From positions 1 through 64,000 of IMG/VR virus record IMGVR_UViG_3300009194_000005: 64,000 nucleotides of DNA; one strand, given 5' to 3'. A program made the translations under genes and the position numbers. Numbering within the stretch: position 1 is the stretch's first letter; each line of letters begins with the position of its first letter. This document shows positions 22,831 to 57,074 of the stretch, one piece after another. Below the pieces are notes generated by a model, which worked only from the letters and a program-made list of their open reading frames with translations, did no database searches and was not told the origin of the DNA. The stretch comes from a virus.

Positions 22831-23493
22831 TTAATCCTTGGGTGGGTTAACCTCGATACGGACATCCAGGAGTGTCAAGTCCAACGCTTTAGGAACTACG
22901 GAAGGGGGCGGAACGTCCTTCCGTACCGCTTGCGACCGTGGCGACGTTTTCCCAACAAGGTCTCGTGCTTGGGCCGTTTCGCGATGGACGACTTGACGAT
23001 AGGTGTCGATGGGCGGACAGAGGTGGTGGATTTCCCCTGCCCGCCCGGTAAATTTTTGGAGGGGATCTCCCTTTTGGTAAGATCTTTCATTCGGTGGGTC
23101 CTCAGTGGGACGAAGGTCGTGGATGGTATTGCGCAGCTGAGTGGCTGACTCCATCGACATGGCACATTGGATACGAAAGGTATAGTGGTCCACATCGGGA
23201 GTGGGCTCATCAGTTTCATCGTCGAGACGGGGGATGGGCTCTTCGTCGGCGGAAATTTCCTCCTCCGGTTGGGGAGTCTCTTGGGGCTTCTCTGCCACCA
23301 AGGTGCGGGCACCATTGCGGAATTGCATCAGCCATTGGGTAGCGACCCACATAGGGAGGTCATCGAGGCACTCAAACACCTCATCCAGCAGGTCATCTTC
23401 ACGCAGTGTGATGCTGTGCTGCGTCGGTGTCGGGCGGTACGACTTAAGTGTCGGGAGGTAATAGGCCTCCAGCCCCAATTTACGGTAAGACAT
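22831..23493 (-). CDS. unknown acidic protein
   Basis: I start this 220-residue protein at ATG 23493 (GGAG eight bases upstream), not at the earlier in-frame start. It has a structured N-terminal part (SYRKLGLEAYYLPTL), an acidic Pro-rich linker near residues 70-105 and a second region with HYTFRIQCAMSMESATQL. No family is recognised. It is the first gene of a minus-strand run into the coiled-coil and RNAP genes. A 19-base element shared with the region near 35.6 kb lies about 40 bases upstream. Confidence 0.45.
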   Translation of the reverse strand: MSYRKLGLEAYYLPTLKSYRPTPTQHSITLREDDLLDEVFECLDDLPMWVATQWLMQFRNGARTLVAEKPQETPQPEEEISADEEPIPRLDDETDEPTPDVDHYTFRIQCAMSMESATQLRNTIHDLRPTEDPPNERSYQKGDPLQKFTGRAGEIHHLCPPIDTYRQVVHRETAQARDLVGKTSPRSQAVRKDVPPPSVVPKALDLTLLDVRIEVNPPKD

Positions 23494-23532
23494 CGTCAAT
23501 CTCCATGTCAGTACATTCGGTACGGTCACGAA

Positions 23533-23551
23533 GATAATGTAGATGTCAAAA
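23533..23551 (-). promoter_or_regulatory. 19-base repeated promoter-like element
   Basis: On the minus strand this reads TTTTGACATCTACATTATC and is identical to 35602-35620. Both copies lie a short distance upstream of a minus-strand gene start, so a phage promoter is the simplest reading. TTGACA and CATTAT are too close for a host sigma-70 promoter. Confidence 0.45.
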
Positions 23552-23628
23552 TGAATGGACTTACCTAAGTGACGGCATAGTCCCTACCCGTTATGTGGGT
23601 AGTGTTTTTGTTATGGTGGCAACATAAC

Positions 23629-23646
23629 CCCTCCCCGTAGGGAGGG
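23629..23646 (-). terminator. terminator hairpin at 3' end of the large RNA
   Basis: On the minus strand CCCTCCC pairs with GGGAGGG around TACG, then GTTATG follows. A second small hairpin (GTTATG/CATAAC, 23610-23628) follows directly. It plausibly marks the 3' end of the structured RNA transcript. Confidence 0.6.
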
Positions 23647-23654
23647 TATTATGC

Positions 23655-24425
23655 GGATAATGTCCGGCTGTAGGGCGTGAGTTACCTCACCCCATCGATC
23701 TCCGGTTTCCCGGTCAATCCTTCTTCCGGACAATCTCCCAATGCAGTACCTGCCTCTAAGGGAGAACGCTCTCCTAAACGGTGCATTATCGCGCTACCCA
23801 GTTACCCAGGTGCATTAGGTCAGGCTCCCAACTCACCGTTCTAGTGCCTTGTATGCGGTTCTCCAGTCAACCGCATGTTCATCAACAACTGTGCTGGAAC
23901 ACAGGATCTGTGGCCCACACGACGTGGTACCACTATCACTCCGCGTTACTTAAGTAACATCCGGAGTTGATTAGGCCCGCCGCGAGATGGGATGCTTTCG
24001 TACTGACATCGGGTGATTCACCCAACAGCAGCCTACTCACCGCCCTATGTCGCCCAATAACTTCCCACGTTAAAGGAAGACGCCCCGCGACTTGTCCAGT
24101 CTCAGCTTCCTAGGTCGGTATGTATCGGACCAGCATACCTGACCTCTCCCTTTCGCTATCGGAATGGCGGGAGTGTATCTTTTACCCCACACCGTTGTTG
24201 AGGGTGCTTTTTTTTTTCAGCACCTGGCATGCGGCTTACCGATAACTAGTCGGTTTATGCGTAATCCTCAAGACAACCGACAATCTTGAGGATGGGAAAG
24301 TGAAGGTTTCGGTCGCATTGTGTGGGGCTGTCCCCGAAGCGTGTTCCACACCTACGCCATCCGCTCGTTCTTAGTTGGACGGACTATCCCTAGTGATCCA
24401 CCTTCAAGCTTCCTGGGTTCTTTGA
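23655..24425 (-). ncRNA. large ornate structured RNA (GOLLD/ROOL-class candidate)
   Basis: No credible ORF occupies this 770-base stretch, yet on the minus strand it is packed with stable helices. Examples are a perfect 10-bp hairpin at about 24264-24293 (ATCCTCAAGA and its complement), CTCCG...CGGAG enclosing GTTACTTAAGTAAC (about 23940-23965), and ATGCGGTT/AACCGCAT (about 23850-23875). Others are AGGTC/GACCT enclosing GGTATG/CATACC (about 24110-24146) and an A-rich loop closed by GGTGCT/AGCACC. The 3' domain is closed by GTCCGG/CCGGAC (23726-23731 with 662-667) and holds two GNRA-capped hairpins, CCGG-GAAA-CCGG and GTGAG-GTAA-CTCAC. It lies directly downstream of a tRNA gene on the same strand and ends at a terminator. 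GOLLD and ROOL RNAs are phage-borne RNAs of this size found beside tRNAs; membership is inference. Confidence 0.65.
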
Positions 24426-24436
24426 AATCGGGAGGG

Positions 24437-24736
24437 TGCCCCGAGCCGAACTCGAATCGGCACGACCATACGGTCGGGAGATTTTCTTACCCACTATAGC
24501 TTTCACTACCGCACCTGAATGCGTTTGGGGTCTGGACTATCCCTCAAGCATATCCATTACTGGACGTAGCCCACTCCCGTCTAGTCTCTGCACGTTCCTC
24601 TGTCGAGGCTTCGCTCAGGATTGCCATCAGCCGAACTGGAAGGTTTCCCTGAATTTGAGAGTGTGTGCAACCACAGGTTTCCCCATGGAGGCTCAGTTAC
24701 CAAAGTCTCCTGTGTCTACCATTCCACCACCGGGGC
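24437..24736 (-). tRNA. tRNA-Leu(UAA), split by a group I intron
   Basis: The 5' half reads GCCCCGG-TG-GTG...CAC-A-GGAGA-CTT and the 3' half AAAA-TCTCC, then a long variable arm (CGACC-GTAT-GGTCG), the T arm GCCGA-TTCGAGT-TCGGC and acceptor TCGGGGC-A. Joined, the anticodon loop is CTTAAAA, anticodon UAA. The acceptor pairs fully with one G-U. The long variable arm is typical of leucine tRNA. The mature tRNA is 83 bases without CCA, which is not encoded. The intervening 217 bases are the intron listed separately. The holin-like gene ends 40 bases upstream and the large structured RNA starts just downstream, so all may share a transcript. Confidence 0.9.
24486..24702 (-). ncRNA. group I intron in tRNA-Leu(UAA) anticodon loop
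   Basis: The intron starts after U34 and ends in G, as group I introns do. Core elements in order on the minus strand are CTCTCAAATTCAGGGAAACC, GGCAATCCTGAGCGAAGCC, GTGCAGAGACTAGACGGGAG and GGGATAGTCC. P4 pairs TCAGG with CCTGA. P7 pairs GACTA (24586-24582) with TAGTC (24539-24535). A GTAGTGAAAGCTAT hairpin precedes the 3' site. These blocks closely follow the cyanobacterial tRNA-Leu(UAA) intron (subgroup IC3) as I recall it, where P7 is GACTC/GAGTC; here both sides changed together. No endonuclease ORF is present. Confidence 0.9.
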
Positions 24737-25668: not shown

Positions 25669-27939
25669 TTAGGGAGAAGTAGTGGTGGTGTCGGTGATTT
25701 CTACTTGCTCAGTCTGGAAGCCCGGGAGGCTGTTGTACTGAGAAGAACCCATCACCTTGTCCAGACCCACAACGTCGATCTCGATAGCGAACGGGATGTT
25801 GTTGACGTGCAGGTTGAACGGCACGGCAGCAATCTCACGAGAGATCTGACCGTTACGGCTGATCGGCAGGTCCGCGATGATGGTCGGCACGTAGTAGAAC
25901 TGACCGAAGTTGAGGATGTCGTTCTCAACCGGGTTCTCACGGGTCGGCACGATCACGATCTTACCGTCGAAGCGCTCGTTGTTGGTGCTGACGATGTCGT
26001 ACTTCAGGTAGGAACCCAGAGTACGGTCGTCGCCGACACGCATCAGGTAGTGAGCGATCTCCTTATCGGTGGCGATGATGAACTTGGGACGCTCATCAGC
26101 ATTACCGGTGACGGTCTGGAAGGCCGCCTCGATGTTGGAGTCACGGTAGGCCGGGAACAGCAGGCTCTTGATGGTGTTGAGGATGGTCTCGCAGACGTCT
26201 TCCCAACGATCCTTGGAGCGCACGGTGTCGATGGCCTGCTCGAGATCCAGGGTGCCAGACCGGTAGGTCGGACGGATCATGGCGGACAGGGCACCTTCCA
26301 CAGCACCGAATTTCGGACGGTCGTAACCAGAACGCACCACTTCGCGCAGCTGAGCCAGGTAGTTCAGCAGACGGGTCACCGCGTTGTTGCTGTTGCGGAT
26401 GTTGGTGGCCACGGTCAGGGTCTTGACCACGTCGCCCGGGCCGGACTCGTCCATGGTGGACATCGGCAGGGTGATCGGGCTGTGCATCGGGATCGGGTAG
26501 CGGAACTGCAGAGTACGAGTCTGCACCAGCTGGCCACGCTCACGACGGTTGGAGTTGGTGAAGCGTGCATCCAGGTCGTAACCGAGAACGGTCATGTCAC
26601 CGAAGGCATCGGCCACGGTCTTGGCATCGCCAGCGGACTTGTCCAGCTTCTGACCGGCGTCGTCGAAGATGTCTTCGATCACGACCGGGGTAGCGTTGAT
26701 CCAGGCATCACCCTTGGACAGGGAGACGGAACCGGAAACGCCCACGGACAGCCGCATGGTCCAGCTGCGGTTGACGATCTCGTCGATAGCCGCGTTGGTG
26801 GAACCATCGATGGCCTTGGTGGAGGCGGACACGACCAGGTCTTCGGTGGTGAAGTTCAGCTGCGCCAGACGGGTGTCGTTGGTCAGGCTGGGCTGGAACA
26901 CCGCGGTGGGCATACGCTCAACGGTGAAGCGAACCACTTTCGGAGTGGTGCCACCCAGACGCACGTACAGGTGCTTCAGGCGCATGGCCGGATCGATGGT
27001 GTCGGATACGTCCAGCAGGTTGCCAGCGATCAGTTGCTGACGGTTGGACACACCGATAAGGTCGAACTTCTCACCGATCTTCAGCGGAGCGGTCTTGACG
27101 GTACCGCCTTTCTCGAGCTCGATGTCCTGCGGTGCGATAACGGCGGGATCAACGAACACACGAGCGTTCTTGTCGGCGTCGTCAACCACGGGCACCAGCT
27201 TGGTGCTGGCATCTTCCAGGACGGACGGGTCACGGAAGGCTTCGACCATGTTCACTTCACGGGTGTCGAACAGCGCACCGGTGACTTCGTGGAACACGTC
27301 TTTCAGGACAGCAGCGTAGGTCAGGTTCTGGGTCACACCGCCTTCGGTGGGGTTGACCACCACGGTGGGATACAGGGCTTCGCCAAAGGCGTCCTGACGA
27401 GCAGCGGCCAGGTTGTAGGCCACAGAGATCACACGGAAGTCACGCTGGGACTTCTCGTTGTAGTTCTCCAGACCGGTGTTCTCGGAGAGAACGGGCATCT
27501 GACCGTGCGGGCCGTCGATCATCGGGGAGATGGCGATGACGTTCGGGTTGTTGGACTGCGGGACGCTACGCATGCCCTGCAGGGAGCGCTTGTAGCGAAC
27601 TTCGTCGTTACCGGCGATGGCAGCCAGGGTCGCGGACAGGACCTGGTTCTCACCCACACGCTGGGCGTCGGCGCCACGCTTGGCATTGAAAGACTCGAAG
27701 CCTTCACGCTCGAGCATCTCGTGCATGGAAGCGTACAGCTCCTGACAGGAGGCCGCTTCTTCGGTGCCGATATCACCGAACGCTTCGGTGGAGATACGAC
27801 CGACCAGTTCCTTACCGCCAGCCAGGGGGCTGCCCACGGTATCGGAGTGAGACTCCAGGGAGGCGACGAACTCGCCGATCTGGAAGTCTTTGCTCATCGC
27901 GTCGTGACGAGCAGCAAACAGCTTCTTGAGGTTACTCAT
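25669..27939 (-). CDS. major capsid protein, phiKZ type
   Basis: This 756-residue protein matches the size of the phiKZ major capsid protein (gp120, about 750 residues). It has strong codon bias toward C-ending codons, typical of the most abundant virion protein. An N-terminal region with SLE at residues 27-29 could carry prohead-protease sites. Middle segments such as FDLIGVSNRQQLIAGNLLD and YDRPKFGAVEGALSAMIRPT look like HK97-fold capsid sequence of this lineage. It forms the icosahedral shell. It has its own strong terminator. The start is ATG 27939 with AAGGAA upstream. The call comes from recognised similarity, not a search. Confidence 0.8.
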   Translation of the reverse strand: MSNLKKLFAARHDAMSKDFQIGEFVASLESHSDTVGSPLAGGKELVGRISTEAFGDIGTEEAASCQELYASMHEMLEREGFESFNAKRGADAQRVGENQVLSATLAAIAGNDEVRYKRSLQGMRSVPQSNNPNVIAISPMIDGPHGQMPVLSENTGLENYNEKSQRDFRVISVAYNLAAARQDAFGEALYPTVVVNPTEGGVTQNLTYAAVLKDVFHEVTGALFDTREVNMVEAFRDPSVLEDASTKLVPVVDDADKNARVFVDPAVIAPQDIELEKGGTVKTAPLKIGEKFDLIGVSNRQQLIAGNLLDVSDTIDPAMRLKHLYVRLGGTTPKVVRFTVERMPTAVFQPSLTNDTRLAQLNFTTEDLVVSASTKAIDGSTNAAIDEIVNRSWTMRLSVGVSGSVSLSKGDAWINATPVVIEDIFDDAGQKLDKSAGDAKTVADAFGDMTVLGYDLDARFTNSNRRERGQLVQTRTLQFRYPIPMHSPITLPMSTMDESGPGDVVKTLTVATNIRNSNNAVTRLLNYLAQLREVVRSGYDRPKFGAVEGALSAMIRPTYRSGTLDLEQAIDTVRSKDRWEDVCETILNTIKSLLFPAYRDSNIEAAFQTVTGNADERPKFIIATDKEIAHYLMRVGDDRTLGSYLKYDIVSTNNERFDGKIVIVPTRENPVENDILNFGQFYYVPTIIADLPISRNGQISREIAAVPFNLHVNNIPFAIEIDVVGLDKVMGSSQYNSLPGFQTEQVEITDTTTTSP

Positions 27940-30652: not shown

Positions 30653-31099
30653 TTATGGTTCATATAACATAACCGGAAGGTCTATCGGGTCAAGGTAATG
30701 ACAGATAAGTGGCTTAACTTGAGTCACCCAATCAAGGCCGCCCAACCCACACCCAATGGCTGGGATGGCGATCGAATCAATGTACATTACCCGATAATTA
30801 TCGACGAGGTAACGGAGTCCCATCTCAATATCGTCTACCTTTGACGCATCGCGCCAATGTCGTTTCGTGTGAAAACATAAAACCTGGCGACCAGGGTATG
30901 CCGTAGCGATAAGTGGGCGGTGAGGATGTAATCCTCCTTCTTCAAAAGCGCGCCGATAAACCCGCCATACGTTAGGATAGCGTTCTTTTGTTGTCTTTGC
31001 TAATCCTTTCCCCATGACACCGACGCAGTTGGTAGGACATGTGATCGTTTGCATTCCAGTAGCAAAGATATCTCCGGCATATACTGATCCAATGATCAT
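30653..31099 (-). CDS. DarG-type macrodomain (ADP-ribosyl hydrolase candidate)
   Basis: The 148 residues form a single macrodomain. Ligand-binding segments are GDIFATG (9-15), TNCVGVMGKGLA (23-34) and IPAIGCGLGGLDW (112-124). FHTKRHWRDAS at 76-86 matches the FPTKRHWRG segment of DarG antitoxins, whose lysine (here K79) takes part in removing ADP-ribose from DNA. DarT/DarG systems block phages by ADP-ribosylating DNA, so a phage DarG-like domain would plausibly reverse that. Alternatives are processing of ADP-ribose-1-phosphate or of signalling nucleotides. It lacks the C-terminal DarT-binding part of full DarG. It overlaps the next small gene and follows a terminator. Confidence 0.75.
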   Translation of the reverse strand: MIIGSVYAGDIFATGMQTITCPTNCVGVMGKGLAKTTKERYPNVWRVYRRAFEEGGLHPHRPLIATAYPGRQVLCFHTKRHWRDASKVDDIEMGLRYLVDNYRVMYIDSIAIPAIGCGLGGLDWVTQVKPLICHYLDPIDLPVMLYEP

Positions 31100-56624: not shown

Positions 56625-57074
56625 AAATGATATTTGTAATGTAATACTCATTTCATTACATTCGTGACAATATCGATGTCCCTTCAGACTGGAAGGTCTG
56701 AATGCAAACCCTTCTAATTGCTGGGAACCCCTAAAGCTACCTCACCACAGGTACCCCGAAAGGAGGTATCGATGGTTTAACAACGAGGTGGATGCGTCCT
56801 ACGGGACAAAATGGGCAACCGTGGGGTCTAAGACCCCCTGTAGCAGCGAAGCCCCTACAGGGCCTCTTAGGAGGCCTACGGGGAACGTTCAACGGCTATC
56901 GAAAGGCACCTTATGGTGAACCGAGTAGAGTAGGGACCAAGTGGTCCCGAAATGGAGGGCGTCCCACGGGGACGAAGATATAGTCTCACCTGCATGGGAA
57001 ACCTGCAGCAGCCTGCCCTGTCGTGAGACAGTCTGGGGCGAGTAAGAAGGTAGCGTTTCTTACTGAAGATAGTG
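56625..57074 (+). ncRNA. group I intron in DNA polymerase gene
   Basis: The 450-base intron begins after a U and ends in G, restoring frame exactly. P1 is extended: exon GGAU pairs with GTCC, and GATATTTGT and AATGTAAT pair with ACAATATC and ATTACATT. The core carries AATTGCTGGGAACCCCTAAA (P4/Q), GTTCAACGGCTA (R, 56888-56898) and AAGATATAGTC (S, 56975-56985). P7 pairs GGCTA (56894-56898) with TAGTC (56981-56985). Several GC hairpins (GGGGTC/GACCCC, CTGTAG/CTACAG, GGCCTC/GAGGCC) make an elaborate P5-P6 region. These elements indicate subgroup IA. No endonuclease ORF lies inside. Confidence 0.9.

Follow-up and report, generated by a model that had tools for sequence, protein, structure and literature searches.

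Does a phage carry a genuine group I intron in a leucine tRNA gene, and if so, how is it related to the intron in the same gene of cyanobacteria? The tRNA-Leu intron is a textbook ancient intron. Kuhsel and Xu are said to have described its antiquity in 1990 (Science), Besendahl reportedly argued for its vertical transmission in 2000 and Rudi for its horizontal transfer in 2002, and we know of no vector for such transfer. The locus considered here lies in a window of 64 kb (the whole stretch of DNA that was analysed, 64,000 nt, to which positions refer unless stated otherwise). An initial annotation had read it as a leucine tRNA gene split by the cyanobacterial/plastid intron in a jumbo phage.

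Positions 24437-24736 on the minus strand form a tRNA-Leu(UAA) gene whose exons are separated, after U34, by a group I intron of 217 nt. Its parts are as follows.

24703-24736, minus strand: tRNA-Leu(UAA) 5' exon, 34 nt, ending ...GACUU at U34 (ARAGORN with introns, sequence and splice geometry)
24486-24702, minus strand: group I intron, 217 nt, ending ...GUAAG with G as its last base (RF00028 and leave-out model R2)
24437-24485, minus strand: tRNA-Leu(UAA) 3' exon, 49 nt, beginning AAAAUCUCC at A35 (ARAGORN with introns; spliced exons typed as Leu(taa))

Run without introns, ARAGORN found no tRNA in the 64-kb window; with introns allowed it returned one tRNA gene in the 64 kb, tRNA-Leu(taa) at c[24434,24737], whose anticodon holds an intron of 217 nt. 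The predicted mature tRNA has 83 nt (24703-24736 joined to 24437-24485), with a 7-bp acceptor stem, a discriminator A and a long variable arm. The gene model agrees with the initial annotation in giving a complete leucine tRNA with anticodon UAA and in joining 24703 to 24485, and together with alignment A1 (see below) it places the intron at U34|A35, the site of the cyanobacterial tRNA-Leu intron, as had been proposed.

A search with the Rfam Intron_gpI family, which had been suggested as a check, gave the only above-threshold Rfam match in the window: RF00028 at 24513-24712 (-), 51.0 bits, E 5.1e-10, covering 253/253 model positions (cmscan), with a thin margin of 1 bit over the gathering score of 50. 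A further covariance model, R2, was constructed from 16 tRNA-Leu introns (11 from phages and 5 from cyanobacteria) that did not include the window intron. R2 matches 24472-24716 (-) at 158.4 bits (E 8.2e-49); across 118 kb of this phage the runner-up reaches 17.8 bits, which rules out a chance match. A AGGGATAGTCC repeat in the non-coding stretch 3' of the tRNA was considered as a partial second intron and is taken as an alignment artefact: with lax filters, the best cmscan path (52.6 bits) extends the intron to 24149 and would thereby pass over the 3' exon of the tRNA, and another covariance model, R1, run with filters off, found nothing above 5.1 bits in 23400-24440.

The structure was assessed in alignment A1, which comprises 44 introns: the window intron, 29 other phage introns and 14 cyanobacterial tRNA-Leu introns. 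The group I structure, P7 included, has 47 pairs, with 98.0% of cells paired and changes on both sides in 29 of the 47. Covariation scores 0.554, compared with 0.181 ± 0.008 for shuffles and no more than 0.109 for slid controls. P3, P4-P6 and P7 are 100% paired and P8 is 99.4% paired in the 44 sequences, each of P3, P4, P5, P6, P7 and P8 shows changes on both sides, and the anticodon helix is preserved in 97.7% of cells. The elements of the window intron that define this fold are listed here.

24692-24694, minus strand: internal guide GAG; its partner is exon CUU, and a U-G pair marks the 5' splice site (A1 columns 12-14 / 45-47)
24657-24662, minus strand: P3 5' strand ACUCUC (A1 columns 78-83; 100% paired, both-side changes in 6/6 pairs)
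24573-24578, minus strand: P3 3' strand GGGAGU (A1 columns 192-197)
24647-24652, minus strand: P4 5' strand UCAGGG (A1 columns 88-93; 100% paired)
24615-24620, minus strand: P4 3' strand UCCUGA (A1 columns 125-130)
24582-24586, minus strand: P7 5' strand GACUA (A1 columns 184-188; pseudoknot with P3/P8)
24535-24539, minus strand: P7 3' strand UAGUC (A1 columns 258-262)

The three pairs between exon CUU and guide GAG (C-G, U-A and U-G) occur in 44 of 44 sequences. The locus thus has a pseudoknotted P3-P8/P7 core with covariation, a U-G pair at the 5' splice site and a terminal G, and comparative sequence analysis confirms that this phage tRNA-Leu(UAA) gene holds a genuine group I intron; the subclass is presumably group IC3. 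By itself, the intron folds with an unremarkable energy (z -0.23; 78 of 200 shuffles equally low), so that covariation and homology, not stability, carry the evidence. That ordinary energy, together with a fourth P1 pair (at the first intron base) that is U-U here and in no other of the 44 sequences, might point to a decayed intron in a pseudo-tRNA that has lost splicing. We consider this very unlikely, given that P3 to P8 are intact, the exons form a complete tRNA and the locus is unchanged in two records of the phage (which may come from one population).

The intron would self-splice, as judged from its homology to tRNA-Leu introns that do so; for the Anabaena intron, self-splicing has reportedly been demonstrated. 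The transcript would fold so that exon CUU pairs with guide GAG, and a guanosine bound in P7 would attack after U34. The freed 5' exon would then attack after the last G of the intron (24486), so that U34 is joined to A35 and the UAA anticodon is restored; the usual enzymes would mature the ends of the tRNA.

The window is part of a 116.5-kb virus contig, a fragment of a phiKZ-like phage. A second record of the same phage (149.9 kb) is identical over the 1597 bp compared, intron included. The phiKZ-like genes encode a major head protein (phrog_3231), a DnaB-like helicase, an RNA polymerase beta subunit, an internal head protein and phiKZ gp119. These genes fit the description of the carrier as a jumbo phage, a size that is deduced from them, since the two records reach only 116.5 and 149.9 kb.

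25669-27939, minus strand: gene for the phiKZ-like major head protein, lying upstream of the tRNA gene (phrog_3231, E 5.4e-233)

Of 227 phage records that encode a related head protein, the best 12 all belong to jumbo Pseudomonas phages (55-57% identical). The interval between the head protein and polymerase genes, in which the window phage has its tRNA-Leu, contains no annotated tRNA in Psa21. A Macro domain protein is encoded at 30653-31099 (-) (PF01661, E 5.6e-10).

Directly 3' of the tRNA, a stretch of 907 nt (23530-24436, minus strand) contains no convincing gene. It folds at -344.7 kcal/mol, compared with -294.65 ± 9.43 kcal/mol in shuffles (z -5.3; 0 of 20 as low), and has no Rfam match to other families at E ≤ 1, nor a blastn match among phages at E ≤ 1e-3. 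The fold prediction makes it a candidate large structured RNA. GOLLD and ROOL are large phage RNAs that likewise adjoin tRNAs.

The group I intron family matches the phage record at six places, and four of these matches, including the tRNA intron, exceed the family cut-off.

G000:C1 (phage contig) 89997-91118, minus strand, and 76195-76500, minus strand; window 56633-57008, plus strand: five other group I intron matches, three above the cut-off

Three of these five lie within 1.2 kb, and the one at window 56633 comes after a DNA polymerase ORF. With so many candidates in one genome, the tRNA intron might be a copy of one of them that jumped into the tRNA; the other five nevertheless have a different core (AATTGCTGG- or AACTGCTGG-like, and AAGATATAGTC- or AAGATATGGTC-like) and nothing besides the tRNA intron scores above 17.8 bits with R2 in the 118 kb, so such an origin seems extremely improbable.

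Related introns are widespread in viral sequences. A pattern of the intron 3' end was found in at least 120 IMG/VR stretches, and R2 matches all 120 listed stretches at E ≤ 1e-6 (97/97 and 23/23 sources in two runs); ten of these introns are in R2 itself, one stretch is the other record of the window phage and five are cut by the contig end. An anticodon-UAA tRNA resulted from 95 of 100 spliced viral candidates (a set that includes the window gene and two records of the phage collection) and none from the other five. Among 75 candidates extracted by script there are 55 distinct intron sequences. In the first pattern scan most listed stretches have an uninterrupted anticodon stem; 11 of the 17 flagged match R2 at E ≤ 1e-6, and L045 from that scan matches R1 only (38.7 bits). 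Both pattern scans are lower bounds, from which no prevalence can be derived.

In nine candidates (L149, L163, L175, L177, L193, L194, L203, L223 and L229) this intron occupies the same position in a tRNA with anticodon UAA whose body is short (73-75 nt) and lacks the long arm that leucine tRNAs have. Locus L438 (G129:C1:44001-64000) combines 14 tRNAs, a terminase match and a split tRNA-Leu(UAA) in a genome drawn as cyanobacterial. With a phage-like intron (L428/L438) in an array of 14 tRNA genes and a terminase on the contig, we read it as a phage contig in a metagenome-assembled genome (MAG).

The carriers do not appear to be close kin of the window phage. Of 20 IMG/VR records tested, other than the two of the window phage (G000 and G005), 9 encode terminase TerL (PF03237) and 0 match the head protein of the window phage, which, for records that are fragments, speaks against close kinship. 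Named carriers are Agrobacterium phage Atu_ph07, which is cultured, and the 735-kb huge phage LR756501. In blastn searches of 50,697 phage records with five family introns, Atu_ph07 and LR756501/LR756503 were the only whole-length kin among the matches listed, and with the window intron no match among those listed covered 80%. The family thus looks rare, by sequence similarity, in the collection of named phages. The split tRNA-Leu(UAA) gene of Atu_ph07 lies at MF403008.1 112925-113230, where the record has no tRNA annotated and a hypothetical protein is annotated across part of the gene. The Atu_ph07 paper reports 33 tRNAs, and the word "intron" does not occur in its main text (PMC6102473).

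Cyanophage S-CAM1 has a tRNA-Leu-TAA gene without an intron, to which the tRNA-Leu exons of L106 are 90-94% identical. Pelagiphage HTVC105P was rejected as an empty site for L072: beyond its 38-nt match the sequence differs, and an integrase gene is close by. The match may therefore be an attachment site and was not used as an intron-free gene.

Some members of the family are associated with possible homing functions. HNH-type genes lie within introns L039, L047 and L142 and adjoin introns L106, L174 and L198; their Pfam HNH matches have E values of 2e-5 to 0.01, most under the curated cut-offs, with only the L142 protein passing one. The window intron contains no homing endonuclease gene within its 217 nt, and 0 of 7 ORFs around it match endonuclease families, so that mobility of this copy is unsupported. 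The lineage is also not bound to tRNA genes, as a related intron (L359; 162.6 bits with R1) lies outside any tRNA in HTVC120P (MH598807.1, ~19.6-19.8 kb), between two ORFs that are both annotated as capsid protein; capsid and tRNA introns therefore share it.

We hold with high confidence that the tRNA-Leu(UAA) gene of the window phage carries a group I intron that is compact, has no endonuclease, presumably splices itself and belongs to a phage family probably spread by homing. The family occupies the same base in the tRNA-Leu(UAA) genes of many phages, and its spread from phage to phage would have been driven by the HNH endonucleases inside or beside some copies. We propose that it persists because splicing makes the intron harmless and the UAA anticodon loop is a highly conserved target; it may even benefit the phage. 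That such a phage would be a vehicle for moving the intron between bacteria, as the initial annotation suggested, is a fair hypothesis; the comparisons made here revealed no transfer event in which this phage took part.

These tRNA-Leu(UAA) introns apparently constitute a large, undescribed phage family, as far as sequence searches and the literature go. A 2014 review places all phage introns known so far in protein-coding genes (PMC3984707). No phage tRNA intron appears in the accessible parts of PMC7162821 (where the word "intron" is absent), PMC7886860, PMC12350094, PMC11878797, PMC13096335 or PMC12908238, and the literature matches listed, comprising titles and the starts of abstracts with most subscription journals outside their range, include no group I intron in a phage tRNA. 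Outside cyanobacteria, tRNA-Leu-TAA introns are described in Beggiatoaceae (BOGUAY and Ca. Thiomargarita nelsonii; PMC4853749). Those introns differ in residing in bacterial genomes, and they are set beside the phage introns by description only.

How does the window intron relate to the cyanobacterial one? Our lineage comparison covered the cyanobacterial copies. The two share the gene, the U34|A35 site and the helices, and they can be aligned end to end with identities of up to 0.658. Several differences stand beside these similarities. (i) The last pair of P7 is A-U in the window intron, as in 29 of the 30 phage rows of A1 (the lone U-A being that of the 735-kb huge phage), and C-G in 14 of 14 cyanobacterial rows. 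The paired change in P7 that had been pointed out is thus real but not private to this intron. (ii) The window intron has AGTCC-AGACC and a 3' part GGTAAG where cyanobacterial tRNA-Leu introns have AGTCC-AATTCT and GAATG, so that neither the C-G end pair nor the AATTCT...GAATG part typical of that lineage is present. (iii) Cyanobacterial rows have a long P5 region; it is short in the window intron and absent from 28 of the 29 other phage rows.

Across 27 columns that separate cyanobacterial from phage tRNA-Leu introns, the window intron is cyanobacteria-like in 10, phage-like in 12 and neither in 5, with the cyanobacteria-like states mostly 5' and the phage-like states mostly 3'. The core blocks that the initial annotation had matched to the cyanobacterial intron are therefore real, mostly 5' and part of a whole-length alignment, but they sit beside the 12 phage-like columns. 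This distribution invites the explanation that the intron is a recombinant, with a 5' half derived from a cyanobacteria-like tRNA-Leu intron and a 3' half from a phage-like one. Of the diagnostic columns up to intron position 104, 8 are cyanobacteria-like, 1 is phage-like and 3 are neither; from position 112 the counts are 2, 11 and 2. The split point was, however, picked post hoc and paired columns are not independent. Phage intron L152 is also mixed (11/27 cyanobacteria-like), L215 has the same rare 5' states, and most phage-like states on the 3' side are likewise the most frequent ones in tRNA-fMet introns, so that the 3' states of cyanobacterial tRNA-Leu introns may simply be derived. We judge recombination unlikely.

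The main tree contains 79 introns (41 phage Leu introns, the window and HTVC120P introns, and 15 Leu, 14 fMet and 7 Arg introns of cyanobacteria) over 202 columns, with the Arg root for drawing only. The window intron, on a long branch (0.51), groups with phage intron L195 (95/95). Cyanobacterial Leu (100/100), fMet (96/97) and Arg (100/100) introns form clades, the Leu clade lying apart from the window intron, and phage introns are spread between them. An earlier tree had 88 rows, after 18 of 106 alignment rows were dropped (from ten loci that endonuclease genes split or that aligned badly, together with one of the two L363 matches); removal of a further nine rows, distant or poorly aligned, gave the 79. 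In the 88-row tree the window intron and L195 (92) fall near L152 and the cyanobacterial Leu introns with weak backbone support, L424 and L425, introns of another tRNA, lie inside the cyanobacterial Leu clade, and Arg introns lie among phage introns.

AU tests did not reject a single clade of the window intron and cyanobacterial Leu introns (p 0.249; p 0.446 with L195 added), of phage introns (p 0.163; 0.188 for the same split from the cyanobacterial side), of all Leu-site introns (p 0.090) or of phage Leu introns without the HTVC120P intron (p 0.083). Since none is rejected, neither a phage reservoir nor a plain two-clade history is established by the trees. The claim of a cyanobacterial/plastid intron accordingly holds for the site; the intron itself groups with phage L195, although one clade with cyanobacterial Leu introns is compatible with the AU test.

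Direct capture, in which the phage or a recent ancestor took an intron-bearing tRNA-Leu gene from a cyanobacterial host, would account for the cyanobacteria-like blocks of the 5' half (10/27 diagnostic columns), whose exact pattern matches, among viral contigs, only the other record of the window phage, and it accords with the AU results of p 0.249 and 0.446. It fits less well with the 12 phage-like columns and the 5 that are neither, with the best tree, in which L195 is the partner and cyanobacterial Leu introns are separate, and with best identities of 0.658 to a cyanobacterial Leu intron versus 0.715 to a phage intron. The listed capsid relatives, moreover, infect Pseudomonas, and most named records come from gammaproteobacteria (best 12 of 227). 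Direct capture thus appears decidedly unlikely.

In two overlapping draws of genomes, 73 of 244 and 173 of 338 genomes were matched at E ≤ 1e-6, counts that include tRNA-fMet and tRNA-Arg introns. The matches listed in the scan of genome contigs comprise only cyanobacteria and L261 (JACCVJ010000252.1), a cyanobacterial-type tRNA-Leu intron in a MAG named Tatlockia sp. (Legionellaceae). We dropped L261 as a gammaproteobacterial carrier. Many genomes of its class had already been drawn as cyanobacteria, so that GTDB evidently places L261 among them, which suggests that this MAG is a mislabelled cyanobacterium.

Two further groups bear on the ancestry of the family. Cyanobacterial tRNA-fMet(CAU) introns, whose identity was assigned from exon letters, share with phage tRNA-Leu introns the core, AGTCCAGACCaCAAAC and the common 3' end GGTAaG, and they are nested among the phage introns in the tree; they differ in the tRNA, in the splice position and in forming their own clade. 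The HTVC120P intron extends the same lineage to phage protein genes. Judged by alignment and trees, the phage tRNA-Leu introns share ancestry with the cyanobacterial tRNA-Leu, tRNA-fMet and tRNA-Arg introns. Phages might be the main reservoir, perhaps even the source, of group I introns in tRNA anticodon loops; the cyanobacterial Leu intron (and through it plastid trnL) and the fMet and Arg introns would then be separate captures from a diverse phage pool homing into the UAA anticodon loop. We offer this tentatively, as a possibility that is on the doubtful side.

As a single case, the window intron varies a known kind of intron, and the main interest lies in the family and in the direction of intron movement. 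This ancient tRNA-Leu intron has a large pool in viruses that has apparently been overlooked. The at least 120 IMG/VR stretches, a cultured phage and the HNH-type genes make homing into tRNA anticodon loops directly testable. As default ARAGORN misses the window tRNA and the Atu_ph07 gene has a hypothetical protein instead of a tRNA annotated across part of it, tRNA counts of large phages can miss genes. If phages are indeed the source, the plastid trnL intron of plants would trace back, via the cyanobacterial tRNA-Leu intron, to a phage pool.
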